In this document: positions 2,976 to 64,000 of the stretch, one piece after another | Numbering within the stretch: position 1 is the first letter of the stretch | Layout: the number at the start of each line of letters is the position of its first letter | Origin: Drechmeria coniospora | Lineage: Eukaryota; Ascomycota; Sordariomycetes; Hypocreales; Ophiocordycipitaceae | Length of the DNA: 64,000 bases | Direction of reading: 5' to 3' | NCBI RefSeq assembly: GCF_001625195.1 | Contig: NC_054390.1 | Span: 4,240,027-4,304,026 of the forward strand | Notes under the pieces: model-generated | The model's input: only the letters and a program-made list of their open reading frames with translations | The model's database searches: none | Told to the model about the DNA's origin: nothing | Program-made: the position numbers and the translations under genes

Positions 2976-5900
2976 ATGATCTCGGCCTCCTTTCTCCCCA
3001 CGCGCTTCCGCGGCGAGCCCAACCTGCCGGCCGCCTCGACGCCCTCGCCCATGGCCAGGCGCGTCGCCCCGCTCCTCCAGTTCCTCGCGAGGCTCGCCTG
3101 CTCCCACCCGATCCACACCGTCGTCGTCGTCGCCGTCCTCGCCAGCACCTCGTACGTCGGCCTCCTCCAGGATAGCTTCTTCGAGAGCGCCGGCACCGTC
3201 GGCAAGGCCGACTGGTCGACCCTCGTCGACGGCAGCCGGCCCTTGCGCGCCGGCCCCGACACGGCCTGGCGCTGGCAGTCGGTCGAGCACGACGTGGCCC
3301 TGCCGCCCGACGTCGACCACCTCGCCCTCCTGACCCTCGTCTTCCCCGACACCCTCTCGACCGACTCGCCGAGCACGGCCCCGGCCGCCCACGCCGTGCC
3401 GACGCCCGCCAACCTCTCCGTCACGCGCCTGCCGCCGACGGAGAACTCCTTCACCGCCTACTCCCAGGACAGCATCCTCGCCTACGCCCTGCCCTACGCC
3501 GAGGCGCCCGAGTTCGTCGCCGCCGCCCAGGAGATCCCCAACGAGGATGCCGAGGAGACGCTGACGCGCCACGGCCGCGAGAGGAAGATGTGGATCATGA
3601 AGGCGGCCAAGGTGCACACGCGCGGCACCCTCCACCAGTGGGCCGCCAACGCCTGGACCGAGTTTCTCGATCTCCTCAAGAACGCCGAGACGCTCGATAT
3701 TATCATCATGATCCTCGGCTACCTCTCCATGCACCTCACCTTCGTCTCCCTCTTCCTCTCCATGCGCCGCATGGGCTCCAACTTTTGGCTCGGCATGAGC
3801 ACCCTCTTCTCCTCCGTCTTCGCCTTCCTCTTCGGCCTCGCCGTCACCACGAGCCTTGGCGTCCCCGTCAGCGTCATCCTCCTCTCCGAGGGCCTGCCCT
3901 TTCTCGTCGTCACCATCGGCTTTGAGAAGAACATCGTCCTCACCCGCGCCGTCCTCTCCCACGCCATCGAGCACCGCCGCGCCCAGGTCCAGAACGCCAA
4001 GTCGGCCGCCGCCCTCTCGCCCTCGGAGCAGGGCCAGAACCTGATCCAGCACGCCATCCAGGCCGCCATCAAGGACAAGGGCTACGAGATCCTGCGCGAC
4101 TACGCCGTCGAGATTCTCATCCTCGTCCTCGGCGCCGCCTCGGGCGTCCAGGGCGGCCTCCAGCAGTTCTGCTTCCTCGCCGCCTGGATCCTCTTCTTCG
4201 ACTGCCTCCTTCTCTTCACCTTCTACACCGCCATCCTCAGCATCAAGCTGGAGATCAACCGCATCAAGCGCCACGTCGACATGCGCATGGCCCTCGAGGC
4301 CGACGGCGTGAGCCGCCGCGTCGCCGAGAACGTGGCCCAGAGCCAGGACGACGGCCAGGACGCGCCGGACGGCTCGCTCTTCGGCCGCAAGCTCAAGAGC
4401 AGCAGCGTGCCCCGCTTCAAGGTGCTCATGGTGACGGGCTTCGTCGTCATCAACCTCGTCAACATCTGCACCATCCCCTTCCGGAGCGCCACCTCGCTCT
4501 CGAGCCTGCGCTCCTGGGCCGGCGGCCTCGGCGGCCTCGGCGGCGTCGTCTCCATGCCGCCCGTCGACCCCTTCAAGGTGGCCTCGAACGGGCTCGACGC
4601 CATCCTCGCCGCCGCCCGCGCCGGCGGCCGCGCGACGCTCGTCACCATCCTCACGCCCATCAAGTATGAGCTCCAATTCCCCTCGGTCCACTACGCGCTG
4701 CCCTCGTCGCTCGGCGAGAAGATGGGTCTCGACAGCTACGGCGTCGGCGGCCGTGTCGTCGGCAGCCTGCTCAAGAGCCTCGAGGATCCCGTTCTCTCCA
4801 AGTGGATCGTCGTCGCCCTCGCCCTCAGCGTCGCCCTCAACGGCTACCTCTTCAACGCCGCCCGCTGGGGCATCAAGGACCCCAACGTGCCCGACCACGG
4901 CATCGACCGCGCCGAGCTCGCCCGAGCCCAGCGCTTCAACGAGACGGACTCGGCGACGCTGCCGCTCGGCGAGTACGTGCCGCCGACGCCCCAGCCGACG
5001 GAGCCGGCGACGCCGGCCATGACGGACGACGAGGGCGACGTCGCGCCCTCGGTGGCCGCCAAGCCGAGGACGAGCCCGTCGTCGGCCGCGGCCGAGCAGC
5101 GGCCGGTCGAGGAGCTCGAGGCACTCGTCGCCGCCAAGCGGGCCCACGAGCTGTCGGACGAGGAGGTCATCACCATGTCGATGCGCGGCAAGATCCCTGG
5201 CTACGCGCTCGAGAAGACGCTCAAGGACTTCACGCGCGCCGTCAAGATTCGCCGCTCCATCATCGCGCGCAACAAGGCGACGGTCGAGATCACGAGCGGC
5301 CTCGAGCGGTCGCTGCTGCCGTACGAGAACTATAACTGGGAGCGCGTTTTCGGCGCCTGCTGCGAGAACGTCGTCGGCTACCTGCCCCTGCCCGTCGGCG
5401 TCGCCGGCCCGCTCGTCATCGACGGCCAGAGCTACTTCATCCCCATGGCGACGACCGAGGGCGTCCTCGTCGCGAGCGCCAGCCGCGGCTGCAAAGCCAT
5501 CAACTCGGGCGGCGGCGCCATCACGGTGCTCACGGGCGACGGCATGACGCGCGGCCCCTGCGTGACCTTTGAGACTCTCGAGCGCGCCGGCGCCGCCAAG
5601 CTCTGGCTCGACTCGGACGCCGGCCAGGCGGTGATGAAGAAGGCCTTCAACTCGACGAGCCGCTTCGCGCGGTTGCAGTCGATGAAGACGGCGCTCGCGG
5701 GCACGAATCTCTACATCCGCTTCAAGACGACGACGGGCGACGCCATGGGCATGAACATGATCTCCAAGGGCGTCGAGCACGCCCTCAACGTCATGGTCGC
5801 CGAGGGCGGCTTCGAGGATATGCAAATCGTCTCCGTCTCGGGCAACTACTGCACCGACAAGAAGCCGGCGGCCATCAACTGGATCGACGGACGCGGCAAG

Positions 5901-6682
5901 AGCGTCGTCGCCGAGGCCATCATCCCCGCCGAGGTGGTCAAGAGCGTGCTCAAGAGCGACGTCGACGCCCTAGTCGAGCTCAACGTGTCCAAGAACCTCA
6001 TCGGCTCGGCCATGGCCGGCTCCATCGGCGGCTTCAACGCACACGCGGCCAACATTGTGGCCGCCATCTTCCTCGCCACCGGCCAAGACCCCGCGCAGGT
6101 GGTGGAGAGCGCCAACTGCATCACGACGATGAGAAAGTGAGTTTCTTTCCGTTGCATTGTTCCCGCGCATTCTTTTCATCCCTCTTTTCTTCCCCTCCCT
6201 ATTTTCCTCTCCTTACCTCCTCCAAACCTCGTGTTCGCTTGGCGATGCCGTGATGCCGTCGTTGATGTGAACCGATTTGCTGACGGACGCGGCGCACCAG
6301 CCTGCACGGCTCTCTGCAAATCTCCGTTTCGATGCCCTCGATCGAGGTCGGCACGCTCGGTGGCGGCACCATCCTCGAGCCCCAGAGCGCGATGCTCGAC
6401 ATGCTCGGCGTCCGGGGCTCGCACCCGACGAGCCCCGGCGACAACGCGCGACGGCTGGCGCGCATCATCGCCGCCGCCGTCCTCGCCGGCGAGCTGTCGC
6501 TCTGCAGCGCGCTCGCGGCCGGTCACCTCGTGAGGGCGCACATGCAGCACAACCGAAGCGCCGCGCCGTCTCGGACCGGCACGCCGGCGCCTCCGCCGAT
6601 GACGCCCGTGTCGTTGGCGATGACCAGCGCGCAGGAAAAATGCAGCAAGAGCGCGGCGGCGCGTCAGCGGTCGAAGCGATGA
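2976..6682 (+). CDS. HMG1: HMG-CoA reductase (two exons)
   Basis: Reduces HMG-CoA to mevalonate with NADPH, the committed step of sterol and isoprenoid synthesis, in the ER membrane. Exons are 2976-6136 and 6301-6682. The 164-bp intron has donor GTGAGT and acceptor CCAG and restores the conserved ...TTM-R-N-L-H-G... junction, giving about 1180 residues, the usual length for ascomycetes. Membrane helices and a sterol-sensing domain lie at about residues 235-425, followed by a variable linker and the catalytic domain from about residue 740. Visible motifs are [17 protein letters not shown] (about 798), [17 protein letters not shown] (catalytic Glu), [12 protein letters not shown], the catalytic-Lys segment [14 protein letters not shown] and the C-terminal catalytic His in GHLVRAHM. 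I chose the ATG at 2976 because [14 protein letters not shown] resembles the usual fungal N terminus; the frame stays open upstream, so a longer form is possible. Confidence 0.95.
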
Positions 6683-18565: not shown

Positions 18566-18654
18566 GCCCGGTTAGCTCAATCGGTAGAGCGTGAGACTCT
18601 TACTCCAGAGTACACGAAATCTCAAGGTTGCGGGTTCGACCCCCGCATCGGGCT
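18566..18654 (+). tRNA. tRNA-Lys(CTT) with intron
   Basis: The acceptor stem GCCCGGT pairs with ATCGGGC. The D-arm word TAGCTCAATCGGTAGAGC and T-arm word GGTTCGAC are present. The anticodon stem TGAGA/TCTCA encloses the loop CTCTTAA once an intron of about 16 nt (starting CTCCAGAGTAC) is removed directly after position 37, so the anticodon is CTT. Confidence 0.92.
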
Positions 18655-19431: not shown

Positions 19432-19520
19432 AGCCCGATGCGGGGGTCGAACCCGCAACCTTGAGATGCCGTGTACTCTGGAGTAAGAGTCTCACGCTCT
19501 ACCGATTGAGCTAACCGGGC
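19432..19520 (-). tRNA. tRNA-Lys(CTT) with intron, second copy
   Basis: Reverse-complement copy of the tRNA at 18566-18654, differing only by two or so bases inside the intron (ACACGGC against ACACGAA). It faces the first copy, so the two genes form a long inverted repeat about 780 bp apart. Confidence 0.92.
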
Positions 19521-42861: not shown

Positions 42862-44475
42862 TCACGACGACTTCGGCGCCGGCTTGGCGTGGCGCTCGGC
42901 GTCGACCGTCTCGCCCGCCGTCGCGTCTCGGTCCTCCTTCTCGTCAATGTCGTCGACGTCGCGCGGCGTCGCCATGCCCGTGCTCTGGCTCTCCTCGTTC
43001 TGCTCGTTCTCCTCGTCGATGAGCTCCTGCTGCTCGCGGAGGACCTCGAGCCGCTGCTTGTTGGTGGCGGCGCCCTCGGCGTTGTGCACCTCGAGCTCGA
43101 TCTCGTGGAAGAGCTCCTCGGGGATGGAGGAGAGGACGCCGTTGAGGGCGTCGATCTGGCTCGAGCCCTCGCCCGAGCCCTGGCCGTACATGAAAGCGTT
43201 GCTGAGGACGAGCAGGGTCGAGGGCACGCCCTCGCGGAGGCGCAGGTCGAGCCAGCTCTGCAGGTCGGTCCGCATGCGGGCGGGCGAGACGCTGTGGGTG
43301 CGGATGCCGCGGGCGGCGCAGGCCATCTGCAGCTCGAGCACGGTGAGGCTGTCGACGCCCTCGAAGCTGATGGCCTTGTCGTCGCGCTTGATCTGGCGCA
43401 TGCGGTGGCGGATCTGGTAGCGGAGCATCATGTCGGTGCCCAAGGTGTTGAGGTTCATGTACCGGCACATGGAGACGAGCTGGGGCCGCGAGAGGTTGTC
43501 GAGCGTGAGGTCGTCGCGGAAGACCTTGCAGACCTTGATGACGTCGTCGCTCGTCGGCTTCTCGCCCGTCGAGCGCACCTTGCGGAAGAAGATGGCGAAC
43601 TCCTCCCGCTGGGCCGTCGCCTGGCTCAGCGGCAGGCCCGTCTCGCGGAGCGTCTGCCGCAGGAAGGAGCTGACCTCGTTGCGCGTCGACCGCAGCAGGC
43701 TCGCCTTGGCGTCCTTGGACTTTTGGCCCTCGAACGTGCTCGGCAGCATGTTGGGGAAGAGCTTGAGGGCGAGCGGCAGCAGCGCCTCGCCGAGGGGCAC
43801 GATGATGAAGACGGAGAAGGGCACGAGCCGGCCGAGGTCCTGGACGGTGCGCTGCAGCTGCCGGTGCTCGCGCCGCGTGAGGTCGTAGCCGGCCGCCATC
43901 TTGAGCGCCAGCCTCCAGCTGATCTTGATCTCGGCCGCGAGCAGCTTCGTGCCGTCCCAGTAGTGCCGGGCCTCCTTCTTGACCTTTTGCCAGAGCGTCA
44001 GCTTCTTCGGCTCCTTGTCCGCCTTGGCCACCTCCTGCTTCGCCCGGGCGCCACCCTTGATGAGTTCGGCCGCGGCACCGTCGGTCCTGGTGCCGTCGGC
44101 CTTGGCCGTCGCGAGCTCGCTCCTGGCCGGGGCGCCGGCTTCGAGCACGGGCTTCCGGGCCTGTTCGACGTTGAACCCTGGTGGGGGGGCCCGCGGCGGC
44201 GTCTCGGGCCCGTGGTGCTGCGTCGTGATCCCGCGCGACGGCATCAGGAGCAGCGCCAGCGCTGGCGTTCGGCCTTGTCGACCGACATGATGGGCGAGGA
44301 GGGCGGGGGAGAATGAGAATTGTCGAGGGAGTCGCCGGGCCGCCATGGCGTCGGCCGCCGCTCGTGGGTTTCGCGGCCCGAGGACGGCCGAGCTTGCTCT
44401 GCGGACGAGCTCACCGTTCCCGACGAAGGGGTTCCGAGCGGTCGCCCTTCTGGCAACGGTCGTCGGCGTGCTCAT
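42862..44475 (-). CDS. MDM38: Mitochondrial LETM1-domain protein (Mdm38-like)
   Basis: Inner-membrane protein needed for mitochondrial K+/H+ exchange and for ribosome association during protein insertion. It is a single exon of 537 residues. The N terminus is Arg/Ala-rich and looks like a mitochondrial presequence. The LETM1 core starts near LTLWQKVKKEARHYWDGTKLLA, with one membrane helix (LVPFSVFIIVPLGEALLPLA), the motif LFPNMLPSTFEG, then the ribosome-binding-like domain (FRDDLTLDNLSRPQL, MCRYMNLNTLGTDMMLRYQI, RMRQIKRDDKAI) and an acidic coiled tail. The start ATG at 44475 gives the longest presequence; an internal ATG near 44346 is an alternative. Confidence 0.94.
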   Translation of the reverse strand: MSTPTTVARRATARNPFVGNGELVRRASSAVLGPRNPRAAADAMAARRLPRQFSFSPALLAHHVGRQGRTPALALLLMPSRGITTQHHGPETPPRAPPPGFNVEQARKPVLEAGAPARSELATAKADGTRTDGAAAELIKGGARAKQEVAKADKEPKKLTLWQKVKKEARHYWDGTKLLAAEIKISWRLALKMAAGYDLTRREHRQLQRTVQDLGRLVPFSVFIIVPLGEALLPLALKLFPNMLPSTFEGQKSKDAKASLLRSTRNEVSSFLRQTLRETGLPLSQATAQREEFAIFFRKVRSTGEKPTSDDVIKVCKVFRDDLTLDNLSRPQLVSMCRYMNLNTLGTDMMLRYQIRHRMRQIKRDDKAISFEGVDSLTVLELQMACAARGIRTHSVSPARMRTDLQSWLDLRLREGVPSTLLVLSNAFMYGQGSGEGSSQIDALNGVLSSIPEELFHEIELEVHNAEGAATNKQRLEVLREQQELIDEENEQNEESQSTGMATPRDVDDIDEKEDRDATAGETVDAERHAKPAPKSS

Positions 44476-45792: not shown

Positions 45793-47199
45793 TCACAGAT
45801 ACAGCTTCTCCTGAGACTCGACCGCTTCCCGCAATACCCGGCAGACGACGGCCAGCTCCTCCTCCGTCACCGTAAACGGCGGCGCCAGCAGCACGTGGTC
45901 GCCCCGGACGCCGTCGACCGTCCCGGCCCCGGGGTAGACGGCCACGCCGCGCTCAAAGGCCGCCTGGTAGACTTTGCCGCCGAAGGAGAGGGCCGGATCC
46001 ATCGTCTCCCGCGTCGTCCGGTCCTTGACGAACTCGACGGCCCAGAAAAGGCCGCGGCCTCGGATGTCGCCGACGGACCGGCAGCCGGCCAGCTCCGTCC
46101 GGAGCAGCGCCTCGAGCCGCTCGCCCATCCGCCGGCAGCGTCGGATGAGGTCGTCCCGCCGCACGATCTTCTGCACCGCGAGCGAGGCCGCGCACGAGAG
46201 GGGGTGCGCCTGGTACGTGTGTCCATGGTTGAAGGCGTCGGACCCCCGGCGCAGCGCCCGTATCACCCGCTCGTGCACGTACATGGCCGCGATGGTCGCG
46301 TAGCCGCCCCCGAGCCCCTTGGCGCCCGTCACGATGTCGGGCTCGATGGCGCCCTCCTCCTGCTCGAAGGCGAAGAAGGTGCCGGTCCGGCCGGTGCCGC
46401 ACATGATCTCGTCGAGGATCAGCAGGATGCCGTACTTGTCGCATAGCGAGCGCACGCCCCTAAAGTATCCCCGCGGCGCCGTCACGCAGCCCGAGGTCGC
46501 ACCCATGACCGTCTCGGCGACGAAGGCGATGACCGTCTCGGGACCGACCCGGAGGAACTCGTCCTCGAGCTCCCGCAGCAGACGCCCGGTGAAGTCGTCC
46601 TCCGTCTCCGCCTCCGTCTTGTACCGGTAGGCGTACGGGGGCGACACGTGGGAGACATGCGGGTAGCAGAACCCTTGGTACGGCACCTTTCGCGCCACGT
46701 TGGACGACACCGACAGCGCCGATATCGAATTGCCGTGGTAGCTCTGCCTGCGCGAGACGAAATGCACCCGCCGGCTCTCGTTCCTCTCGAAATGGTACTG
46801 CCTCGCGAGCTTCATGGCCGACTCGACCGCCTCGCTGCCGCTGCCGACGAAAAATGCCATGTCGAGACCGTGCGGTCGGCCGTCGAGGAGGAAGTTGGCA
46901 AGCTCCTCGGCCACGGGCGTCGAGTAGGCCTGCGTGTGCACGTAGCTGACCTTGCGCGCCTGCTCGAGGAGCGCCTCGTGCACCTCCTCGTTTCCGTGGC
47001 CGATGATGGCGACAGCGGCACCGGCGCAGGCGTCGATGACGCTCCGTCCGTCCGCGAGCCGCAGGTGGATGCCCGAGCCGGACGAGACCATGTGAGGGGC
47101 GACTTTGAAGGAACGGAAGAGCAGGTGCGACGCCGTCGATGCCTTCTGCCCGGCCGCGGCACACGGCACGGGAGGCGAGTCGTCTCGGTGCGGAGCCAT
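45793..47199 (-). CDS. Class-III PLP-dependent aminotransferase
   Basis: Single-exon protein of 468 residues with the fold of ornithine, 4-aminobutyrate and omega-amino acid aminotransferases. Visible are VIDACAGAAVAIIGHGNEEV, the cofactor-phosphate loop FFVGSGSEAVESAMKLARQY, SRRQSYHGNSISAL, the Asp pairing with the pyridine nitrogen in ILLILDEIMCGTGRTG, the Schiff-base Lys in DIVTGAKGLGGGY, and GHTYQAHPLSCAAS. The first ATG is at 47199. No targeting signal is obvious. Fungal relatives often sit in secondary-metabolite or amino-acid catabolic clusters. It is divergent with the MFS transporter gene. The substrate cannot be told. Confidence 0.9.
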   Translation of the reverse strand: MAPHRDDSPPVPCAAAGQKASTASHLLFRSFKVAPHMVSSGSGIHLRLADGRSVIDACAGAAVAIIGHGNEEVHEALLEQARKVSYVHTQAYSTPVAEELANFLLDGRPHGLDMAFFVGSGSEAVESAMKLARQYHFERNESRRVHFVSRRQSYHGNSISALSVSSNVARKVPYQGFCYPHVSHVSPPYAYRYKTEAETEDDFTGRLLRELEDEFLRVGPETVIAFVAETVMGATSGCVTAPRGYFRGVRSLCDKYGILLILDEIMCGTGRTGTFFAFEQEEGAIEPDIVTGAKGLGGGYATIAAMYVHERVIRALRRGSDAFNHGHTYQAHPLSCAASLAVQKIVRRDDLIRRCRRMGERLEALLRTELAGCRSVGDIRGRGLFWAVEFVKDRTTRETMDPALSFGGKVYQAAFERGVAVYPGAGTVDGVRGDHVLLAPPFTVTEEELAVVCRVLREAVESQEKLYL

Positions 47200-48152
47200 G
47201 TCGTGTGCATGCAAGTTGTGTTGTATCGGCGATTAGGCAGTGGAGCACAGCGGTGAAGACGGGAGCTCCGAGGATCATGTGTGGGATCGGCGAGGAGAGG
47301 AGCAGCCGCCTTGCGAGATATAAGTAAGTACGCTCGTGGACGTGCAAGCTGTACTCATACCCGCAGAGGAAAGGTGCAAATACGGGGCTTCTGCTTTGGT
47401 TCTGAATCTGTCATCATATCATAGCGAAACCCTCAGATTAGATGCTTCATGCTCGTGTGAGCTCCGTACCGGCGTGTAATTCCGAGTCCCGAGGCCGCCG
47501 GCCTCCATCGGAGCGGGTCTCGGGAATGGGTCTCAGTCATAATGCCGGTACATGGAAGTATGTGCTGTCCAGCACTGGTAGGGAGTACATGTACTTACAT
47601 ACAGCCCAGTACGGAGTACTCCGTACCACTGGTGCTTATTACCGGCTTAGCACGGAGTGCATTTGGGTGCCGACTAGTACGTACTTATTAATTCGTACTC
47701 CGCGCTTGTGCTGGTTGCTGAGGCCAGAAAACACATCAGGTCCACTTAGCACGCCGGCTTTCGGTTTTGAACGGTTCTGGATGTGTCCCGCCGTCCAGTT
47801 CCGATCGGCCCCAGCTGCCAATGGACATTGGACAAGCACATGGCTGTTGCGGAGCGCTTGGTCATAGGATTCGGCAAAGTCATCTTCGATCATGAGCATG
47901 CGGTACGATTTCTTCTTGCACTGCATGCTTCATGACTCAAACAACACGTAGTTGTGAACGAGGCCGTCGGGTTTGCATGCCAAAGCCGACGCAGAGATAA
48001 CACATGGATTCGCCAAGCCATGGTAGCAGCGGTGGGACCGACGGCAAATGCGACGGGCCTCGAATACAAAAACCCCGACGATGTAGCAGAGCGTTGGCCG
48101 TCGTGTCTTGTTTTCGTGCGGATCCGTAGCTTGTTCCTTACAACCAGCGAAG
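47200..48152. other. Divergent promoter region
   Basis: This 950-bp stretch separates the aminotransferase (-) and transporter (+) starts and probably carries both promoters. A TACGGAGTACTCCGTAC palindrome lies at about 47611-47627. No gene recognised. Confidence 0.5.
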
Positions 48153-52699: not shown

Positions 52700-54566
52700 A
52701 GTCAGCCCCCCCCCCAAGACGGGCACACCCCAAGGCGGGCACCCCATTTAGCTCCTTCATGCAAATCAACTTCCTACATTACAACCGCGTTTTTTCGTAC
52801 AATTCAACTACAATCAATTATAAAAATATATTATTAGTATCCATTATGCCTAAGCTACCTACCTATACCAAAGAAACAGTCCAAATAGCTCTATATGCTA
52901 TTTAAAACGGGCTACCGCAACTACAAGCTGCCCGCCAGTACGGAGTTCCGCGTCAAACACTCCAACGCCGATTACGCGGTAGCCTTCCAATTAAAGATGC
53001 AAAAGAAATATTACAGCGGCTTTCTAAGGATCAAGAAAAGCACTTACGCAATTGGGTCCTTGCCCAAGGTGCGTTGGGGCTACCACCCTCACATCAACAA
53101 CTAAAGGTCTTTGCTGGCCGTATTCTTCTGGCTGGAGGAGACCTTCAACCTCTTGGCAAAAACTGGATTGAAGGTTTCTTGCGCCGTAACCCAGAAGTCA
53201 GTACGGTACAAGGCAAGTCTATTGAATGCGCACGTTTAAATAGGGCCTCTATTCCTCGAATTAAGTCTTAGTTCCAATTACTAAGACTACCGGCCCTACA
53301 GGCTATCTTACCCCAATATCGATAGAATATAGACGAAACAGGGATCCTAGAGGGGCTTAGCAGCAATGGCCTAGTCCTAGGGAGTTCAGAGAAGAAGATA
53401 CAGTTAAAAAAGCGGCTTGGATTGTATTGTTGGACTACAATCGTAGAGTGCGTTTCTGCCTCGGGTCAGGCCCTAATGCTACTGGTCCTTTTTAAAGGCA
53501 AGGACCTTCAACACTAATGGTTTCCTGAGGAATTGGCCCCATATGATCAATGGCACTTTGCAGTAACAGATAAGGGCTGGACTAATAACGATATTGCATT
53601 AAAGTGGCTAAAAGAGGTTTTTATCCTCGGGACGAAGGCATCACAGACTAATAAACAGCTCCTTATTGTTGATAGACATAGAAGTTATACAACTGATGAT
53701 TTTATGTACGAATGCTTTAAAAATGGTATCTTCCTTCTTTTCTTACCAGCGCATGCATTACACGTCCTTCAGCCTCTCGATATATCGTGTTTTTCACCAA
53801 TTAAGGCAGCCTATCGCCAGGCAATTGAAGGTATTGCATTTCTAGCTGGCAGCCAAGATATAACGCCAATTGGTAAGGCTACCTTTCTAGAATGCTATAG
53901 TAAGGCCCGAATAGTAGGTCTTACGGAACGGAATATAAAGGGAGGCTGGAAAGGATCTGGACTATGGCCTATTAATATGGCAAAGCCATTATTAAGCCGC
54001 CTTCTCTTACAAGACAAGTCTATAACTATTCCAGAAGACGAGGCCTATAAAGGGCAGCTTAAAGATAGCTGCAATACTTTACAAACGCCCAAACGATTGC
54101 ACAATATTCAGATGCTTATTGCAAAGGTATATGCGCCTGGCCAAGTTAATCGGACTGCTAGGCGGCTATTTTGGAAGATTGGCCGCGGCCTTGATGCACA
54201 TAATACTAACCTTGCAGAGGCCTAAGCAAAAATGGCCCAATTGGAATATCAAGTCTATCGACTTAGGCCTCAAAAGAAGCAAAAAGTAACTCAAGATCTC
54301 AATCAGCGCTTTGCACAGATTGATACAATTGTTGAGACTCGAGCCAGGCTTCGGTAGGTACTAGATCCGGCTCCAGTAGCCGCCTTAACTTCTAGCTTTA
54401 ACTTTAATAGCCTTTGCTTTGAATAGCAGCTTAAATAAATAGTCTAGATATTTTATTTTATTATTATAGCCTTGATAATATTGTATTTTTGGGCTTTGAA
54501 GTTAGCCGCCTTATTGTCAATTAAGGTGCCCGCCTTGGGGTGTGCCCGTCTTGGGGGGGGCTGACT
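52700..54566 (+). mobile_element. pogo/Fot1-type DNA transposon, copy 2
   Basis: 1867 bp with terminal inverted repeats of about 45 bp (AGTCAGCCCCCCCCC..., GACGGGCACACCCCAAGGCG) and a TA duplication at 52698-52699 and 54567-54568. The ends share AGTCAG with copy 1 but differ further in, so the two are related subfamilies rather than a recent duplication. Confidence 0.93.
52846..54438 (+). pseudogene. Degenerate pogo-type transposase, copy 2
   Basis: About 530 codons with no frameshift seen. It reads MPKLPTYTKETVQIALYAI, then HTH blocks, NIDETGI (first catalytic Asp), LLIVDRHRSYTT (second) and LHVLQPLDISCFSPIK (third), then GGWKGSGLWPINMAKPLLSR. It is interrupted by about six in-frame stops, for example at 52903 and 53269; each fits CAA to TAA or TGG to TAG, the change RIP makes. 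The longest uninterrupted piece is 53533-54225. Confidence 0.88.
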
Positions 54567-55109
54567 TACCTCCACACCTATTCAAGCAGGCGCTGGATTG
54601 CAGGCACTATGATACCTGGTAGTGGCAACATCAACAGGAAGAAGAACACAAATAGACTGATTTCTGACCCATCTCACAATACCTAATTCGCAAGTTCTGT
54701 CCCTAGAGCGGTTCCCCTGCTATATGTTGCAGCAGACTCCCCAAGGTTTGCTTTCCAGAGGCCGGCGGCCCGTATGAACTTGGATGACTGAGACAGGTTG
54801 CCCTCAGACGCATGGACTCAAGCAGAAGCAGTGTAAGGATACCATGGAGTAGAACAAGCAGATGGTTCTGTAGTGCAGTAGGCTTACTATCTTATATTAA
54901 CACTTTGCTAGTGCATGACTTGGAGAATGGTCTACTGCAGCAGTCCCTTCGTACATAGCTACGTAAGCCACCCAAAGCCTTGCGTGTCAGGTATGAAGTA
55001 TCTGACCTACTACAACTTGTACGCGCTCTTTCCTTTCCACCACCTGCACGCCTTCCCTTCTCTTAAGCAACAGTCTCTGCGCCATTCAGTTGGCCATCCT
55101 CGTGCAAGG
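54567..55109. other. Upstream region of the DUF7924-type gene
   Basis: No separate gene. The frame of the downstream protein stays open to 54915, so the ATGs at 54915 and 54993 are alternative starts. Confidence 0.5.
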
Positions 55110-56525
55110 ATGAGCACGGTCTTCGTTCCGCATACAGTATCAGGCATTCCCGCCTGTCGAAAGCGTCGACATTCTCGTTCAAACCTATCGTTACCGACCG
55201 ACGATGCATCAAGGGCCCTAAAGCAGCATCGCGGATTCCCTTTACCACGATTCTGGGACGGCTTGTCCAAGATTGACCTTACCAAGAATGCCCTGCGAGA
55301 GTTCAACAGGAGGAATAGGCAGCAAGATTGTGGAAACGCAGAGGTTACCCACACTCCCCACCTCCAGCAAGGCGATTGTCAGCAATCCCTAAAGACCGCT
55401 ACCGACAAGAACGACTGCTCCGCGCCCGTTGATCCTATACTGAGACAGTGTTACTCGCCTTGCTCAAGAGAACTGAAAAGATTCGCAGCTCATGGCGGCC
55501 CAGACTTGAGTGACCTGAGAGGAGTATGGGCACTTGACGAGAGTTTTAGTTGCGATGCTAACTTTTGGCAGTATTCCATGCCAAGGGCCAAAACGAGTTC
55601 CTCCATTCCGTCGGCTCTTGGACGTCGCAAGCCAGGCGCTCAGTTACCCGAGAAGAGCACTGAGAAAACAATCACTTCGAGACGCACGGGGCCGTATGAC
55701 CTTTCATTTCTGCAACATCTACTCGACCATGGCATTTACCCCGATTATCATTGGCATTCCGATGACCAGATCGCACCGGATCCCGAAAATCTCGACGACA
55801 TCATGCATGCCCTAAGGCAACGCCGGGCCTCGTTGTCTTCATCACAATTCTCCGATGACAAGCACAAGAAGTTTAAACGCACAAACGCCCAGGCATCCAG
55901 GGAGAGTCAGGTCGTGGGAAAAGTCATGCCTGTTATTGAGGGCAAAATTGAGGACACGGACTTCTTTGCTGACAAAGTTCCTTTCACCAACCTCGACGCT
56001 TTGACAGACGGCACACTCGTTTCGGCAAGTCCAGACCTTTATTACGGCGCACGCCCTCGTCAACTGCATCAAAGGGTACGGGAGGAGCTATCTGGTCTTG
56101 TTGTCCCCTCCAAACAGGCCGATCTCCCGGCAGCCCCGAACTTCTTTGTGGAAATAAAGGGCAAAAATGGATCGCCAGCTGTAGCGGAACTACAGATATG
56201 CTACGGTATGGCACTCGGAGAAAGGGGCCAAGCTGCTCTTCTTTCTTACCGGCAAACATCCCCAGCCGACACCAATCAAGCTCATACCCTCGGCTGTACC
56301 TACTCGGATGGAACCCTCAAGATGTATGCTACTTACATACTGCAGCCATCCAAGTCACAAACACGGCCTGAGTACATCATAAGGCAGATTGACAGCTGGT
56401 GTTTGACAAGAGATCCTACTTGCTTCAGAGAAGGCGCTACGGCGTATCGGAATGCCAGGGACTGGGCAAGGAGGAAACGAGAACATGCAATCTTGCAGGC
56501 CAATGAATCCTATGAGGGAAGCTGA
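55110..56525 (+). CDS. PD-(D/E)XK-like DUF7924-type fungal protein
   Basis: Predicted 471-residue nuclear or cytosolic protein. The N terminus is basic and disordered (RKRRHSRSNLSLPTDD), with SKIDLTKNALREFNRRN next. The C-terminal half has the pattern of a large, poorly studied fungal family: RTGPYDLSFLQHLLDHGIYP, SPDLYYGARP (candidate Asp), NFFVEIKGKNGS (candidate E-x-K), AELQICYGMALGERG and YRNARDWARRKRE. The Asp and ExK pair suggests a PD-(D/E)XK nuclease-like fold, but activity is unproven. I chose the ATG at 55110 because the sequence before it is not protein-like; 54993 and 54915 would give 510 and 536 residues. It sits between a transposon and the micro-exon gene. Confidence 0.8.
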   Translation: MSTVFVPHTVSGIPACRKRRHSRSNLSLPTDDASRALKQHRGFPLPRFWDGLSKIDLTKNALREFNRRNRQQDCGNAEVTHTPHLQQGDCQQSLKTATDKNDCSAPVDPILRQCYSPCSRELKRFAAHGGPDLSDLRGVWALDESFSCDANFWQYSMPRAKTSSSIPSALGRRKPGAQLPEKSTEKTITSRRTGPYDLSFLQHLLDHGIYPDYHWHSDDQIAPDPENLDDIMHALRQRRASLSSSQFSDDKHKKFKRTNAQASRESQVVGKVMPVIEGKIEDTDFFADKVPFTNLDALTDGTLVSASPDLYYGARPRQLHQRVREELSGLVVPSKQADLPAAPNFFVEIKGKNGSPAVAELQICYGMALGERGQAALLSYRQTSPADTNQAHTLGCTYSDGTLKMYATYILQPSKSQTRPEYIIRQIDSWCLTRDPTCFREGATAYRNARDWARRKREHAILQANESYEGS

Positions 56526-57147
56526 CATCTTGATCCTGAGCAAGTACATATCCTAGAAAAAGCCTCTAGCCTATTAAAGACTACCTCTAATTCTACCTAC
56601 TACTACTACAAAACCTAAATTCTTAGGTAGGAAAACGTTCAACGTCAAGCTTTTACCCTTATTATGTTCGAAAGGTTGTTGCTTATTTCTCTCCTGTGCC
56701 TGTGATTCTATAGCCTCGAATTGCGATAGATTCTGCCCGTTACCCGCATTTAATATATCTATGCTGTATTTCTTGTTAACTTGTCCCAGACGATAATTCT
56801 CTCGCAAACAAATCGGTTCCAACATGTGAAGCAGACGAAAGAATCGCCTTATGTTGCAAGAAGTTAACAGAATGGGCCAACTTCCGTGACTTATTTCCAC
56901 CGCAGATGTTGCAGAATGAGAAATGGCAAGCGGTCGCATGCACATACAATTAGACTTTTAATAAAGCGTAGAATTGATGCCCCTTCCAATATAACTAAAC
57001 GGAAAAGACAGGACCCCGCTAACGATCGGCCGAGCTTAAACTCCAGTAGAGAACTCCATACAACGACCGTAGCTAACATCTACCCAAGATATCTTACCAA
57101 AAACTCGTCCGGACTAGCCGGGTTAATTTAAGAGTAGGAACAGCTCA
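56526..57147. other. AT-rich spacer
   Basis: A minus-strand open frame of about 120 codons at 56574-56945 (contains LEPICLRENYRLGQVNKKYS) looks partly protein-like, but I do not recognise it and its ends are unclear. It could be the 3'UTR or a further exon of the micro-exon gene, or a remnant. Confidence 0.35.
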
Positions 57148-60100
57148 CTACTGTATTTGTAAGCCGGATACATAAGCTTGCATCTTCAACCCGGGTATAT
57201 AAGAAGCATACCCGCTAGTTTGGACGGCCAAAGAGTAACCCATTAGCAATTCAACATAGTACGCCACTAGTTGAGACGTACCGTCAATAGTTCTATTAGA
57301 AGTATCTACATCAGCAAACCAAATTCGGGTATGACAAGTGTTTTTGCGAGAATACATACTGACTCCTAAAAACAAACCGTATCAACTTATCAATAGTAAT
57401 GTAACTGTAGATTAACATCGCAAACTTACCTCAACGTCAAATTCAAAGTTTCCATCAGGATGCTAAGGCTACGTTAGACATTTGTTCAAACTGCAGTGAC
57501 CCTCCTAGGATGGCGTGTATTGTCCTTCTTCCATAAATCATTGAACTATATATTGTAATACCACTCGGTTGATCAAGTGGAGTAACGTACCTCAAAGATT
57601 TGTTTTGTCTAAGGAATCGTTATAGTATAATTTAGCAGCTATTCTTAAATTAAGCTTACCTTTCTGTCTGACGGAAGCCGAACCGCCTTATTCTACCACA
57701 AAGAACCTATATTAGCACATCTCATAATGTAATTCTCGGTATATGCGTTATAGAAACTTACAGTAGAATTATTATCCCGACAATACTCAAGATTTCTCGG
57801 AAATTTTTGGAAATAACTTACTTTCTAAAATAGCAATATGCATATATAAGCATATCCTTATGAATTGTTCTGTAGAATTTGTAGCTACTTACCTCTTCGT
57901 CTTGCTTCTATTGCAATGGTGTCAAACACAGTACATCAACCCTATTTTCAGTAATACCATATGAAAACTTACTTGAACCGGAATATGGACGACCTTGACA
58001 GTTAGGAGTATTAGCATCTTGACAGCCAAGCTCCCTACTTTATGCAGAAACGTACTGGCTAAACCCACTACCGCATTAGCATGACATGCTTAATAGTGCT
58101 ATTATGGTTCAGGTTATAACTCACATCGGGCTTTTTTGGCAATCACAGTTAACCATATTAATAATATGCTAATAACCGGACTCTACCGATATTGCTAGCA
58201 GGGACTTTAAACCTACTTGAACCGGAATACGGACGACCTTGATAGTAGTATTAGCATCTTGACAATCAAACCCGAGATCAATGATTAGGGTCATACCTTC
58301 TAAAATATGCACTTATCTTAGCATATAGCCAGTAGCAATACATGTCACCTACTACCAGCAGAAACGTACTGGCTAAACTCACTACTGCATTAGGATGACA
58401 AATAATAATGTAACTAAGGCTCAGGTTAGAACTCACCTCGCCGTTTTGTGGCTATCACAGTTGACCATATTAATAATATGCCAATGACCGGACTTTACCG
58501 ATATTGCTAGCAGGAGCTTTAAACCTACTTGAACCGGAATACGGACGACCTTTATAGTAGTATTAGCATCTTGACAATCAAACCCGAAATCAATGATTAG
58601 AGTCATGCCTTTTAACATATGCACTTATCTTAGCATATAGCCAGCAGCAATACATGTCACCTACTACCTGCAGAAACGTACTTGCTAAACCCAATACTGC
58701 ATCAGGATGACAAATAATTATGCTATTATGGTTCAGGCTAGAACTCACATTGCTGTTTAGTCGCTATTACAGTTACCCGTATTATTACTATTCTGCGAAT
58801 AATCGGACGCTTCAAAAATCGCGAGCAGGGTTATCAAACTTACTTGCTAAACCGACCACTGCATTAGTATAACATGTAATAATGCTGCTAAGTTCATAGT
58901 TATGACTCACATCATCCTCCAGTTCCACCTATTATAGTTGCCTATGTCAATGCTATCCTGATAATTGCACTCCACCATATGACTCACATCATCCTCCAGT
59001 TCCACCTATTATAGTTGCCTATGTCAATGCTATCCTGATAATTGCACTCCACCAAAATTGCTTGTAGAGATATACTTTCTAAACCCGTCCGGTACATCAG
59101 CAAATCCAGTCTCTATTTCATGCATAGTTAAAAAAACGAAGCTTACACGAGTCAACTGATTATAAATTTAGCCAAATGAGTGCCACAATTATAAAAACAA
59201 GAATTCATATCAATAGAATAGACGCACCAGTTCCACCAAATTTTCCAGCGGAACAACTTCGGACTTCTATAACGGAGTATAATCAGACAGAATTCAAATT
59301 CCTCGTGCATGGAAATAGCCACTCACGTCCTATAGTTCCAGCCATGTTGAACAACTCTGGCTTACAAAACCACTACTGCGCAAGTAGGAACCTACCTGCT
59401 ATGGCGCAGTAAACAAGAATGTTAATTTATTAATTTTTTGTGAGCTATAAGCGAAAAACGTACATTCTAGTACAAGTCAACTTATCAGCACCTCTCTAGC
59501 ATTCGAGTTGCAACTTACCACCTACGTACCCAGAATATTAGCTCAGCGAGCTCAATCCCCATATAGAATTAGGCAGAAATTACCCCCTAAAATGCTCCTG
59601 TCTATTAGTACATCGCGACTTTAACGATTACTTTGCTCTATTTCCTAGGCAAGGACAGACTTACGGGCTGTTATTATTATTAGCGTACTGTTTGGTAAGA
59701 AACCATTCAATAGCATACGGGTTAGTTTACCTTCTATGTTTTGCATGTACATTAGTATACCCTTACGGTTCTCTCGCTCCGTGTGCACATTGAATAAACG
59801 TACGATCTAATACCGCATTAGTATCGCAAATACTTCCCAGATTGATCAACCAAAACTTACACACTTGATTTTCCTAAGTATAAGCCAGTCTGGAAATTGA
59901 AGTTGATGAAAGTTAGGTGGTACTTGCTTGCTAGATTAAACCGTCATTAATTATCCCTAATAGTAAAAGTTCTTCGCTATTGGGAAAATCCTACATTCTT
60001 GAGAATCCATCCGTATTAGATTACTGCTAGTTATCGGATTAGTCCGGAGCTTTCGAAACAACCTACTTTCTAAGTAGCCAGACGTATTAGAATCTAGCTA

Positions 60101-63100
60101 GGATTACCAAAACTTCAGTAATAATCTTACTTCCTTTAAAAGTGTGCGTGCGTTAGCAAACTTCAACAATGAGCGACAGTCGTAAAATGGCAAACGTACA
60201 TGCTACGTTGTAAACTATATTAGTGTACTTGTACAACAGTTATAGGCAAGGTATTTGAAACGTGCGTCCTGAATTATTAATGTCAATATCTACTCGCAGC
60301 TTACGGTACTTATCACGAAGCCGGAGCTTACGTACTAGAGTTATTGGTTATATTAGCATATAGGTACTACCTTTCAGCTAGTGCAACTTACGATCTACCG
60401 TTTCCCTGTCGTGTAAGATAATTGCTAACAAATACGTAAGGTACTTGCATTTTCGTGTATGAACATACCCACTAGGGTTACGGATTGAGTTAGCACACTA
60501 TAACATTGCTGCTCCCGATATACGTGCTTACTTCCTAAAGATTCGGCTTATCAATACATTACCAGCGACCAGCACCGCAAATTAACTTCGAGATCGGAAG
60601 GAACATACAAGCTAGAAGTTTATAATCATATTAGCATTCACTCATCATGTGGAAGGCAAAATCATAAAGGTACTTGCCGCCTAGTTTGCCAGCTTTAGCA
60701 CATATCCAGAAATTCAACTTTTGGACATCAATCAAAACTTACTCCCTGTATATATATATATATTAGCAGTTGCCGATAGCTGAGCACTGTTTCGGCAGTA
60801 AATACTTACACACTAGAGACCATATTCGTATCAGCAGCTTGTCAATACCAGATGATATTGGCACACAGGCGAGAATTTACCCGCTAGAGATTCCAATGAT
60901 TTTAGCAAATTTTACCCCCATACTGTCAGTCAGAGACAATACTTACCAACTGGTCGAAGTGACTGTTAACTTCTTTTCCAGCAATTTCGCTGTTTGGTTT
61001 TCCTAGGGAAGAACCTACGCACTATATTTCACAACAACTTTAGTAAATGCAGCGAAATAGTCAAAGTAAGACCAACAGCCTATAATTGTCAGTAAACCAT
61101 ATAATATTGGTTGTTATATAAGGGGTATTTTATCAAACTTACAATCTGGAGCAATCAGACAATTAGTTTTACATTGTGCCAAAGGATCGCATCGCTAACG
61201 CTTACATACTTTTCTTGTATTAGTCACCTTGTAAATTCTCTACTAACGAATGGAGTTATCTTACGAACTATAATATAAACCCTTAGTATCACGCGAGTAG
61301 TCCACTATGTGCTATAATTATAATTTAAGGAGCGTACAGGTTTATCCTAAAAGTTTCCATTATTAGAAAGCAAGAATAAAATATACAAAAATACAGGTAT
61401 GGGTAGGAAATTACCGGCTAGAGTTATCCGCTACATTAGCGTACATTCCACCGATCTGAATGTAATATACATAATGCTTACATCCTATAGTAGTGTCATT
61501 TCAAGATTATTCCAATGCTCCAGAACTTTGGTATAAAGTACCATATTCTACCAATATCGTACATATTAGTACCTGGAATCCAGCCTCCTCCTCTTTCGTA
61601 GGCTTTGGCATACCTCCTATTGATCCCTGCTATATTAGCACCCTGTAGGTTGATGTCCCACTCTCCTTGCTACCAGAAGAAACCTACACACTATTGATAC
61701 TGAAGTATTAGCATTATTGGTAGTAGTAAGATGAATTCCCGAACATACGTGCTAGAATCAAAAGTCGGGTTAAAATCTGACAAGGATTGACAATAATGGT
61801 AAAAACTTGCCGACTAAAATTTATTAATCGCTCATTGTATGTATGTCCGATCGTACGCAATAAACAGGGACATACTATCTATTATTGACGGTTTTAGTAT
61901 CCTATCGTCTGATTGACGGCAGTTCATAGCAGATTGGATCTCACAAACTATTGCATTGCGAATAAGTATCTTGCTAAACGGATAGCTAGTCGTCATTTTA
62001 GAAAACCTCACATACTAATCATATGTGTCAAAATATTATACGACGGACACTTTAGGCGCCTTGGCCTTGTCAATGGTCAATAGGAACTTACAGGCTAGAA
62101 AAAATTGCTCTCAGCGTTTTACTTGAACGATTGTTTTCAGAAAGATATGAGTCAATACCTACCTTCTAGAGGCAGTCGTATTTTAGCATCTCTCTATTGA
62201 ATAGACCTGAATATACGGGTATCAACTAACGGCCTATAAACTTTTCAGCAAGTAAATCATGCTAGGATTAATAGCTATGGACTTACGGCCTTGAATTATA
62301 GTTGGTTTAGTATCCCGTCTATAGTTAAGTTCGTTGGTTATGGATAATGCAAACGTACACGCTGTACAGTTTAGTTGCGATCGAACATTGCCAAAGAAAT
62401 ATTTGAACAGTACCGAGAATATACTTACAGTCTAGTTGCTAGCTGCGTTAGTATGCTACTTACTGCATTTAGAGTAGGCGAGAACTAATTATAGGAACTT
62501 ACCCACTACGACAGCCAGCAATTAGGATATGCCACAATCAGCTCTTTAAAAATACAAAATCTTACAGACTATATAGCTGCCAATCTTATTAGCAAAACCA
62601 GTATAATATACAATTGTTACTATAGAGAATACGTAACTCCCTAAGGCATGTAAGCTGTTCAAGAACATTCAGACATTAACAGTCCGAGAAAGGAAATTAC
62701 ATCCTATAGTTTCGAGCGGTATAAGTATGTATAGGGTGGGTACTACAAGTAATATTGGAAAATGACTTACTTTCTAAGATTTCGAGTCATTTAACAACAT
62801 AAAAATATAGTTACTAATGTTTGATGATGAACTTACATGCCGCTGTTTGCAAACCGCATTAATTCAAAACCTCCTTAACAGTGGATTTGACGACAGAAAC
62901 ATACAACCTAAAACTCTTAGCAACATAATACGTTGGTGAAATTTAAGAAAGCACTAGTTCATAAATAACTAACCCACTATATAAAAGCCGCAGCATTAAA
63001 ACGATATAGTTATTACGTTTTTTACTAATGCAAGGCATGACGAACGAACTAAACATGCTCAGTGTATGAGTATTATAATAGCAACAGAGTCTATATTTAG

Positions 63101-64000
63101 TGTAGGCTCCAACATACATTCTAAAGATTCAGTCTTATTAGTAAATACGAGTCGTCCATAGCAAGTTTATAAACATACACCCTAGATATCAAATTATCAG
63201 CGTCCAGACAGGGAATACTTTATTGGCCATTTTACACACATGCTAGTATGGCATTATTTTAATATATACTGCTGGTAATGCAATTTATGGTGACCGATAG
63301 AAAACATACTCCCTAGTTGCAAGTCATATTAGCATGCAAACAACAATAATGCGCGTTAATTGAAAGAAAGCAACTTACAACCTAATTGAATTTAGCAAAA
63401 ATATGCGAATAAAGGTGTTTCATATATCAGTGAATGCTAACTAGCTAAAGGTACTACCTGTATTAACAACTCGCTCGCAAACGTATTCGTTCCGAGTCAG
63501 AACACACGTTCTAAAATTAATGTATCCGGTTATTACTGAAAGTACAACTCGACATTTGTTAAAAGACGTAACACACTGACTAAAGTATTGCAATTAGTAA
63601 CTGGTAATACTCTTGGTCGATATAGTGAGAAATTACATCCTAGTTGCCAGGCGCATTAGACAGCCAATACAATACAAGTCTTAGCGACTACGGGTGCAAA
63701 ACCCAATACCTCCTTATCGCAAGTCAGGTTAGCATATAGTACAGTCAGCATCGCTAAAAAGGAAAAAAAGCAAAACTTACCGACTAGGAGCCGACAGCGA
63801 TATTAGAATTATCCCGAAATTCATACAGCAGATAATATAAGCATAAACGTACTGACTAAATTGTGACGATATTAGCATCTAGTTAGCAATAGAATCATGC
63901 AGCGTATATAACGAGCGACTGACCAGCTAGGTACTGTATTGGTATGCATTTCAGTCTTTCTTTTAAACAAGCGATATCATACTCTCTAGTTGCCATCAGT
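57148..64000 (-). CDS. Micro-exon gene with about one codon per exon (5' end outside window)
   Basis: Unknown protein, 5'-truncated. The minus strand shows about 90 introns of 45-80 nt in series, each with a GTAAGT-, GTATGT-, GTACGT-, GTAGGT- or GTGAGT-like donor, a TGCTAAT-like branch site 15-30 nt before a TAG, CAG or AAG acceptor, then a tiny exon. From 63985 to 59327 there are 70 exons: 67 of 3 nt, two of 6 and one of 9. Then come 39 nt (59228-59266), 9 (59147-59155), 3 (59076), 18 (58988 and 58911), 3, 15, 3, 21, 15, 3, 3, 21, 15, 3, 21, 15, 63 (57762-57824), 33 (57660-57692), 18 (57591-57608) and 33 (57430-57462). All are multiples of three and about 215 codons contain no stop. The 3' end is unsure: a stop at 57306 or at 57148. 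No long frame exists, so frame-based gene finding misses it. The stretch FYIACLRCGALEWIYDHE, one residue per exon, hints at a zinc-binding fold (weak). The function is unknown. Confidence 0.75.
57965..58775 (-). repeat. Local duplication of a four-exon block in the micro-exon gene
   Basis: Three diverged head-to-tail copies of a 245-310 bp block. Each holds a 21-nt exon coding VVRIPVQ or VVHIPVQ (57973, 58217, 58529), followed by a 15-nt exon (57893, 58125, 58437) and one-codon exons (CCA, CAA, AAG). A fourth partial copy contributes the 15-nt exon at 58749. Confidence 0.85.
58901..59055 (-). repeat. 77-bp perfect exon-plus-intron duplication
   Basis: Two head-to-tail copies, 77 bp apart, of an 18-nt exon (GTGGAACTGGAGGATGAT, coding VELEDD) with its upstream 59-nt intron. 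Identity is essentially complete, so this exon duplication is recent and kept the reading frame. Confidence 0.9.

Follow-up and report, generated by a model that had tools for sequence, protein, structure and literature searches.

The minus strand at one end of a 64,000 nt stretch of the Drechmeria coniospora genome (C2:4240027–4304026, referred to here as the window) carries most of a gene, g1, that is one of six paralogs in which 128–154 of the 152–187 predicted exons are a single codon long. Their sequences indicate that the introns between these exons are very probably removed serially by the spliceosome, yielding an mRNA that encodes a protein likely to be secreted. D. coniospora (Hypocreales, Ophiocordycipitaceae) is an endoparasite of nematodes. 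An initial annotation of the window listed 70 micro-exons on the minus strand between positions 59327 and 63985, 67 of them single codons and three longer (encoding RH, NM and DKP), and thus covered slightly less than half of one gene. The array is best read as a series of one-codon exons whose splicing is under selection, and this reading is supported by the six diverged paralogs.

Serial one-codon exons in six predicted genes

All 70 micro-exons were found where they had been listed, each preceded by AG and followed by a donor that was GT in 66 cases and GC in four (61811, 60678, 60266 and 59928). The phase-aware gene model of g1 kept 69/70 of them, the sole mismatch being an F at 63046 in place of the H at 63055. 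The exons had also been described as consecutive, and this held in part; the model contains 125 successive exons of 12 nt or less, 119 of them 3 nt, but the longest run made up purely of 3 nt exons is 30. The initial annotation had cautioned that the uniform length was partly a selection effect, the units having been found by the 3 nt pattern, and had proposed a scan against shuffled sequence. A splice-chain search with flat priors for exon length (1–60 nt) and intron length (42–120 nt) answers the first concern, as it returned 95 internal exons over positions 57001–64000 of the minus strand, of which 63 had a length of exactly 3 nt and 85 a length divisible by 3. The scan placed the array far above 60 dinucleotide shuffles of the same segment, in which the number of 3 nt exons averaged 1.18 and never exceeded 4, and the chain score of 663 compared with a highest shuffled score of 229. 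On the opposite strand only 1/57 exons was 3 nt. Chance was ruled out as the origin of the 3 nt pattern by the shuffles and the opposite strand.

The donor, acceptor and branch matrices used for the chains were trained on the 67 single-codon units of the initial annotation, and the five other genes, being outside the training set, therefore provide a cleaner test. Across the six gene blocks, 778/990 exons in the length-neutral chains were 3 nt and 911/990 were multiples of 3, while the opposite strands gave 3 nt exons in 17/915 cases for the five-gene cluster and 4/374 around the sixth gene. The six-block count leaves out 15 short runs (1–8 introns), none of which included a 3 nt exon, and a further 12 exons of 3 nt in the whole chains that fall outside the blocks.

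The six genes were found in a search of the genome (32.8 Mb, 28 contigs). Five are in tandem on the minus strand, namely g1 (C2:4297171–4307893; 152 exons, 128 of 3 nt), g2 (C2:4316900–4328407; 163 exons, 140 of 3 nt), g3 (C2:4331644–4345507; 187 exons, 154 of 3 nt), g4 (C2:4352581–4363920; 158 exons, 138 of 3 nt) and g5 (C2:4368289–4379394; 159 exons, 143 of 3 nt). The other, g6, is 1.3 Mb away at about 2.96 Mb on the plus strand (C2:2964420–2975215; 152 exons, 132 of 3 nt). These counts are from phase-aware models, which favour 3 nt exons, penalise frame breaks, allow introns of up to 180 nt and use matrices retrained on all six genes. They superseded models with no frame penalty, which gave frame-broken proteins. 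When the whole genome was scanned with a strict array motif, 11/11 matches fell within the six genes, and with a looser motif 82/85 did so, the reversed-pattern control giving 1. Searches with the protein and with the first exon, in which the best candidates were scored, each led to the same number of places, six and no more for the first-exon type, and no intron-poor relative was found by them.

The genes are 10.7–13.9 kb long, with coding sequence making up 7.2–10.5% of the length of each. Together the six models contain 835/971 one-codon exons. In the middle part, which extends from the first exon to a 39 nt exon and comprises some 130–155 codons per gene, the exons of 3 nt numbered 119/125, 132/139, 134/137, 125/128, 132/135 and 120/124 in g1 to g6, respectively. 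When pooled, 762/788 exons in the middle parts were one codon long and held 91% of the 838 codons there. In the same gene order, the longest pure 3 nt runs of the models were 30, 29, 53, 82, 82 and 90, and those of the length-neutral chains were 21, 24, 29, 29, 39 and 41. Exon length was a multiple of 3 in 963/971 cases in the frame-penalised models, and intron presence at aligned codon junctions was concordant in all 15 paralog pairs (kappa 0.87–1.00; 0–9 discordant of 152–181), though both figures are biased upward by the preferences built into the models.

Within the window, g1 occupies positions 57145–64000 on the minus strand, which include 96/152 of its predicted exons; 76 of these 96 are 3 nt long. 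The window thus covers 64% of the gene, which continues for another 3867 bp beyond it up to the 5′ end. The two-codon exons RH (62837–62842) and NM (61542–61547) are present in the gene model. The nine-nt exon DKP (61338–61346) has a nine-nt counterpart at the corresponding place in 6/6 models, and the 39 nt exon encoding KSEVVPLENLVEL (59228–59266) is matched by an exon of equal size and similar sequence in 6/6 models; all four are on the minus strand. The 3′ part of g1 (57145–59227, minus strand) has exons of up to 63 nt among one-codon ones and encodes a repeat-rich C-terminal region, and the exact 3′ end of the model is uncertain. In g3, the C-terminal part of the model includes a 19-residue exon (NSEAVAEEPSIQSPPRVNI and variants) repeated four times.

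Splice signals, codons and the predicted protein

The sequence signals fit U2-type spliceosomal introns, with a GT or GC donor, a CTAAY branch and an AG acceptor at normal spacing. Donors were GT in 97% and GC in 3%, with A at +3 in 86%, G at +5 in 91% and T at +6 in 73%. Branch sites had been pointed out in the initial annotation, and the consensus obtained was TRCTAAT, with a median of 19 nt from the branch A to the acceptor, which was mostly TAG (T ahead of AG in 81%). The last exon base was G in only 22% and the exon bases carry no donor consensus. The median intron length was 65 nt (5th–95th percentile 52–77 nt), and the longest intron used in the models was 138 nt, below the limit of 180 nt; as the array is contiguous, there is no space for longer introns between the exons. 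Intron lengths were evenly split over the three remainders. The one-codon exons lie between codons, in phase 0, in 6/6 models.

Between g1 and g2, identity was 0.91 at donors, 0.84 at branch sites, 0.96 at acceptors and 0.76 in intron interiors, GT and AG being partly imposed by the models; AG and a donor were search requirements. The same order, with signals above interiors, was seen in g4/g5 and g2/g3, the other two of the 3/15 pairs examined. The view that splicing is under selection, which had been put forward on the basis of g1, is thus backed by conservation of the splice signals above the interiors in these three pairs, by common intron positions and by the lack of stop codons described below.

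These features suggest a mechanism in which the ordinary spliceosome would take out the introns one by one to produce the mRNA. Each intron may be recognised by intron definition, from the 5′ splice site to the branch point across about 65 nt, as has been proposed for micro-exons (PMC8378409). With 3 nt between introns, factors would not fit on both neighbours simultaneously, and adjacent introns would therefore be processed one after the other. In the case of intron retention, an in-frame stop would be introduced by most introns (809/996).

Judged on their sequences, the triplets of the array are codons. No stop had been noted among those first listed, and none was present among the 778 length-neutral triplets of the six genes (0/778), whereas 28.5–42.6 were expected from composition and control triplets taken from introns at the same sites included 40 stops in 778. 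Simulation of neutral decay at three divergences (2000 runs each) gave means of 11.0, 15.8 and 20.2 stops and a minimum of 2. The residue strings from the length-neutral 3 nt exons also outscored the intron-triplet control in 15/15 gene pairs. If the AG-NNN-GT units were instead recursive splice points through which a long intron is removed piecewise, the three bases would have no coding role. Segment-wise recursive splicing of introns exists (PMC6110457) and the way in which acceptor directly adjoins donor would suit it, but the stop-free triplets spell related proteins in six genes while the matched intron triplets hold stops, and it would be extremely surprising if this explanation were correct.

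The conceptual proteins share 32–51% identity with that of g3 and have 28 invariant columns, 13 of them within the first exon. This exon is 96 nt (90 nt in g5) and encodes MKP..LLVGFLAGQGIAF..SELFPR or a close variant. Four cysteines are invariant across the six proteins, two of them within Y-[IV]-[AS]-C-[LM]-[RL]-C. The product would be exported via its N-terminal signal, the cysteines may form disulfides, and the lifestyle of the fungus and the rate of evolution of the family suggest a role at the fungus–nematode interface, where rapid amino-acid change would be useful. The models comprise 268–308 codons in five genes and 486 in g3, with uncertain 3′ ends; the criterion used for small secreted proteins in D. 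coniospora is 50–300 amino acids (PMC4792172).

No homologue was found among 2957 candidates at E values up to 0.01 when the six-sequence alignment was searched against 5.8 billion proteins, the candidates being restricted to proteins that were close in length and had exact words in common. The predicted proteins of the family itself were also absent from the matches, those of D. coniospora included, and such genes may therefore escape annotation elsewhere too. In Pfam nothing exceeded a curated cut-off (best E 0.046, for one member only), and there was no match at E 0.1 in NCBIfam and no significant match in a profile search of the PDB (best E 0.6).

Several points weigh against the reading of the arrays as serial codons of a secreted protein, in addition to the model preferences and search requirements already given. 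One-codon exons account for 32–53% of the codons of each whole model and not all of them, given the greater length of the first exon and of the C-terminal part. The 3′ ends of the models are also uncertain, and two exons disrupt the frame in each of the g2, g3, g4 and g6 models. Since the paralogs are homologous as DNA, the control intron strings match between genes as well; these matches are strong for the most similar pairs and reach 62 bits for g1/g2. The N-terminus is hydrophobic and conserved in the six models, and was recognised as signal-peptide-like by eye rather than with a predictor; as there is no significant profile or structure match, the proposed function rests on this N-terminus, the cysteines and the lifestyle of the organism. 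The ratio of non-synonymous to synonymous substitution (dN/dS) in the one-codon exons was 0.30–1.09 with a median of 0.70 (15 pairs; crude counts, with dS above 1 in six pairs), which indicates from sequence that purifying selection is weak on many codons. In the three pairs examined, codon positions diverged about as fast as intron interiors, a comparison in which gapped alignment inflates the intron identity. Much of the protein therefore appears to be weakly constrained or diversifying, with a fixed core that includes the cysteines.

As the introns are nearly all between codons, skipping of an exon would drop whole residues and keep the frame. It is possible, though we put it forward tentatively, that through the middle of the protein the exon has come to equal the codon, with the spliceosome building up the coding sequence nearly one residue at a time, and that this in-frame skipping of single residues lets one gene yield a cloud of one-residue variants of the secreted protein. 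If true, the architecture would be unlike that of any known gene. A related proposal, that the architecture serves combinatorial diversity through frame-safe one-residue deletions, would supplement serial splicing of coding exons and not replace it, and appears somewhat unlikely. The high proportion of exons that are multiples of 3, with the frame penalty (963/971) or in its absence (911/990), is in its favour, and schistosome micro-exon genes, whose exons are mostly multiples of three, are discussed in connection with alternative splicing (PMC10526429). However, invariant cysteines and strong splice signals fit constitutive splicing equally well.

Origin of the architecture and genomic surroundings

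Introns at the same position were alike in different paralogs. For g1/g2, aligned identity was 0.79 compared with 0.62 for shuffled pairing, and 118/128 introns exceeded the shuffled 95th percentile. In the other 14 pairs it was 0.67–0.75 compared with 0.61–0.62, and in the weakest pair 71/119 introns were above the 95th percentile. This suggests that the architecture probably predates the gene duplications. Within each of the six genes, intron identity was flat, at 0.507–0.529, from lag 1 to lag 60. The initial annotation had argued that the array is not a simple satellite; in agreement with this, Tandem Repeats Finder, run with the default score, reported nothing over positions 59055–64000, adjacent introns were no likelier to be alike than distant ones, and a satellite or tandem repeat was rejected. 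Insertion of introners or recent duplication of intron–codon units was rejected for the one-codon zone, as the flat lag identity shows no trace of either; ancient introners may still have been the source of the introns.

The 3′ part of g1 includes two repeats on the minus strand. In a perfect 77 bp tandem pair (58901–59054), the 18 nt exon encoding VELEDD (58988–59005 and 58911–58928) is doubled together with intron sequence, and in a 312 bp tandem repeat (58043–58791) the 21 nt exon encoding VVRIPVQ (58529–58549 and 58217–58237) is doubled with the neighbouring introns. As each repeat doubles an exon along with intron sequence, growth by unit duplication is possible.

The gene cluster is in an AT-rich stretch flanked by regions of 58–59% GC. 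The TA/AT index was 1.20–1.27 over the genes, 1.00–1.13 in intron interiors and 0.86 over window positions 1–52000, and the second index of repeat-induced point mutation (RIP) was 0.96–1.11. The TA/AT values of both genes and intron interiors are above 0.89, the RIP mark used for D. coniospora, in which active RIP is reported (PMC4792172). On these sequence indices, RIP is a possible cause of the AT-richness. The raised TA/AT index, the AT-rich setting, the transposase fragment alongside and a dN/dS close to 1 in some pairs could also mean that the arrays are relics, once real one-codon-exon genes that have lost expression. This is highly improbable given 0/778 stops, compared with neutral-decay means of 11–20, and splice signals conserved above the intron interior.

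The architecture of serial coding exons may in addition have been kept as a shield of the duplicated family from RIP, since with about nine tenths of each gene being freely diverging intron the copies would drop below the similarity that triggers it. This is unlikely, and it too would add to the explanation preferred here and not replace it. In Neurospora the RIP threshold is roughly 80% identity, and intron identity was below this (0.67–0.79) in all 15 pairs; the small proportion of exon sequence (7.2–10.5%) and the reported RIP activity are also consistent with a shield. Against this, any old duplicate would show the same divergence, the TA/AT index is still raised so that the genes are not clearly spared, and shrinkage of the exons to one codon is left unexplained.

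A DDE_1 transposase fragment was found beside g1 (window positions 53533–54225, plus strand), and an open reading frame (ORF) that by eye resembles a transposase N-terminus is present between g1 and g2 (C2:4307894–4316899). An ORF at 54915–56525 (plus strand) matches D. coniospora RJ55_05544 with 100% identity over 88% of its length, and PF25545, listed under the name DUF7924 in two matches, occurs in some of its fungal relatives. Further away in the window are two tRNA genes of equal score in inverted orientation (18566–18654, plus strand; 19432–19520, minus strand) and ordinary GC-rich genes for HMG-CoA reductase (2535–6140, plus strand), a LETM1-like protein (42862–44475, minus strand), whose closest named relatives are from Purpureocillium and Tolypocladium (76–82%), and a class-III aminotransferase (45793–47214, minus strand).

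Comparison with other micro-exon genes

Among the matches listed in the openly licensed literature, judged from titles and the starts of abstracts, there was no fungal gene made of serial one-codon exons. The six genes would have the most finely divided coding sequence among those found, with predicted stretches of 124–139 exons of which 119–134 are one codon long. They bear on how small serial exons can be, on whether intron definition could operate through some 150 introns with a usable yield, and on how phase-0 introns come to occupy nearly every codon boundary in the middle part of a protein.

Isolated functional exons of a single nucleotide are spliced in vivo in Arabidopsis APC11 (PMC4674806) and Fusarium CYP621A (PMC12940212). 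These are single tiny exons, whereas the D. coniospora arrays are predicted runs of more than 100. The aphid bicycle and megacycle genes also encode putative fast-evolving effectors, often with an N-terminal signal, and have many small exons of the same phase; megacycle genes are described as encoding about 2000 amino acids in more than 100 micro-exons, and so up to about 20 amino acids per exon, and bicycle genes as having about 17 exons per gene, internal exons in phase 2 and CYC motifs (PMC9168663). In contrast, the fungal introns are in phase 0 and most of the exons are one codon.

The schistosome micro-exon genes are likewise parasite genes for signal-peptide proteins with numerous tiny exons, most of them divisible by three in length, in a layout that is hard for automatic annotation (PMC10526429). 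Many short exons in multiples of three are also a feature of the fungal genes (911/990 length-neutral exons). The schistosome exons are given as 6–81 bp (3–81 in the abstract), the majority being 15 bp, and the introns as ranging from 100 bp to nearly 5000 bp (PMC10526429), while the fungal exons are mostly 3 nt with introns of about 65 nt and the long introns have no equivalent. Family and protein searches with the fungal proteins revealed no sequence relation to the schistosome genes, whose motifs were not aligned directly. As defining features of the schistosome and bicycle genes are lacking, the fungal genes are best described as micro-exon-like and are placed in neither family. From its sequence, the fungal architecture is similar to, yet different from and more extreme than, that of schistosome micro-exon genes, and it bears on why flukes, aphids and a nematode-killing fungus all reach micro-exon genes for likely secreted proteins.

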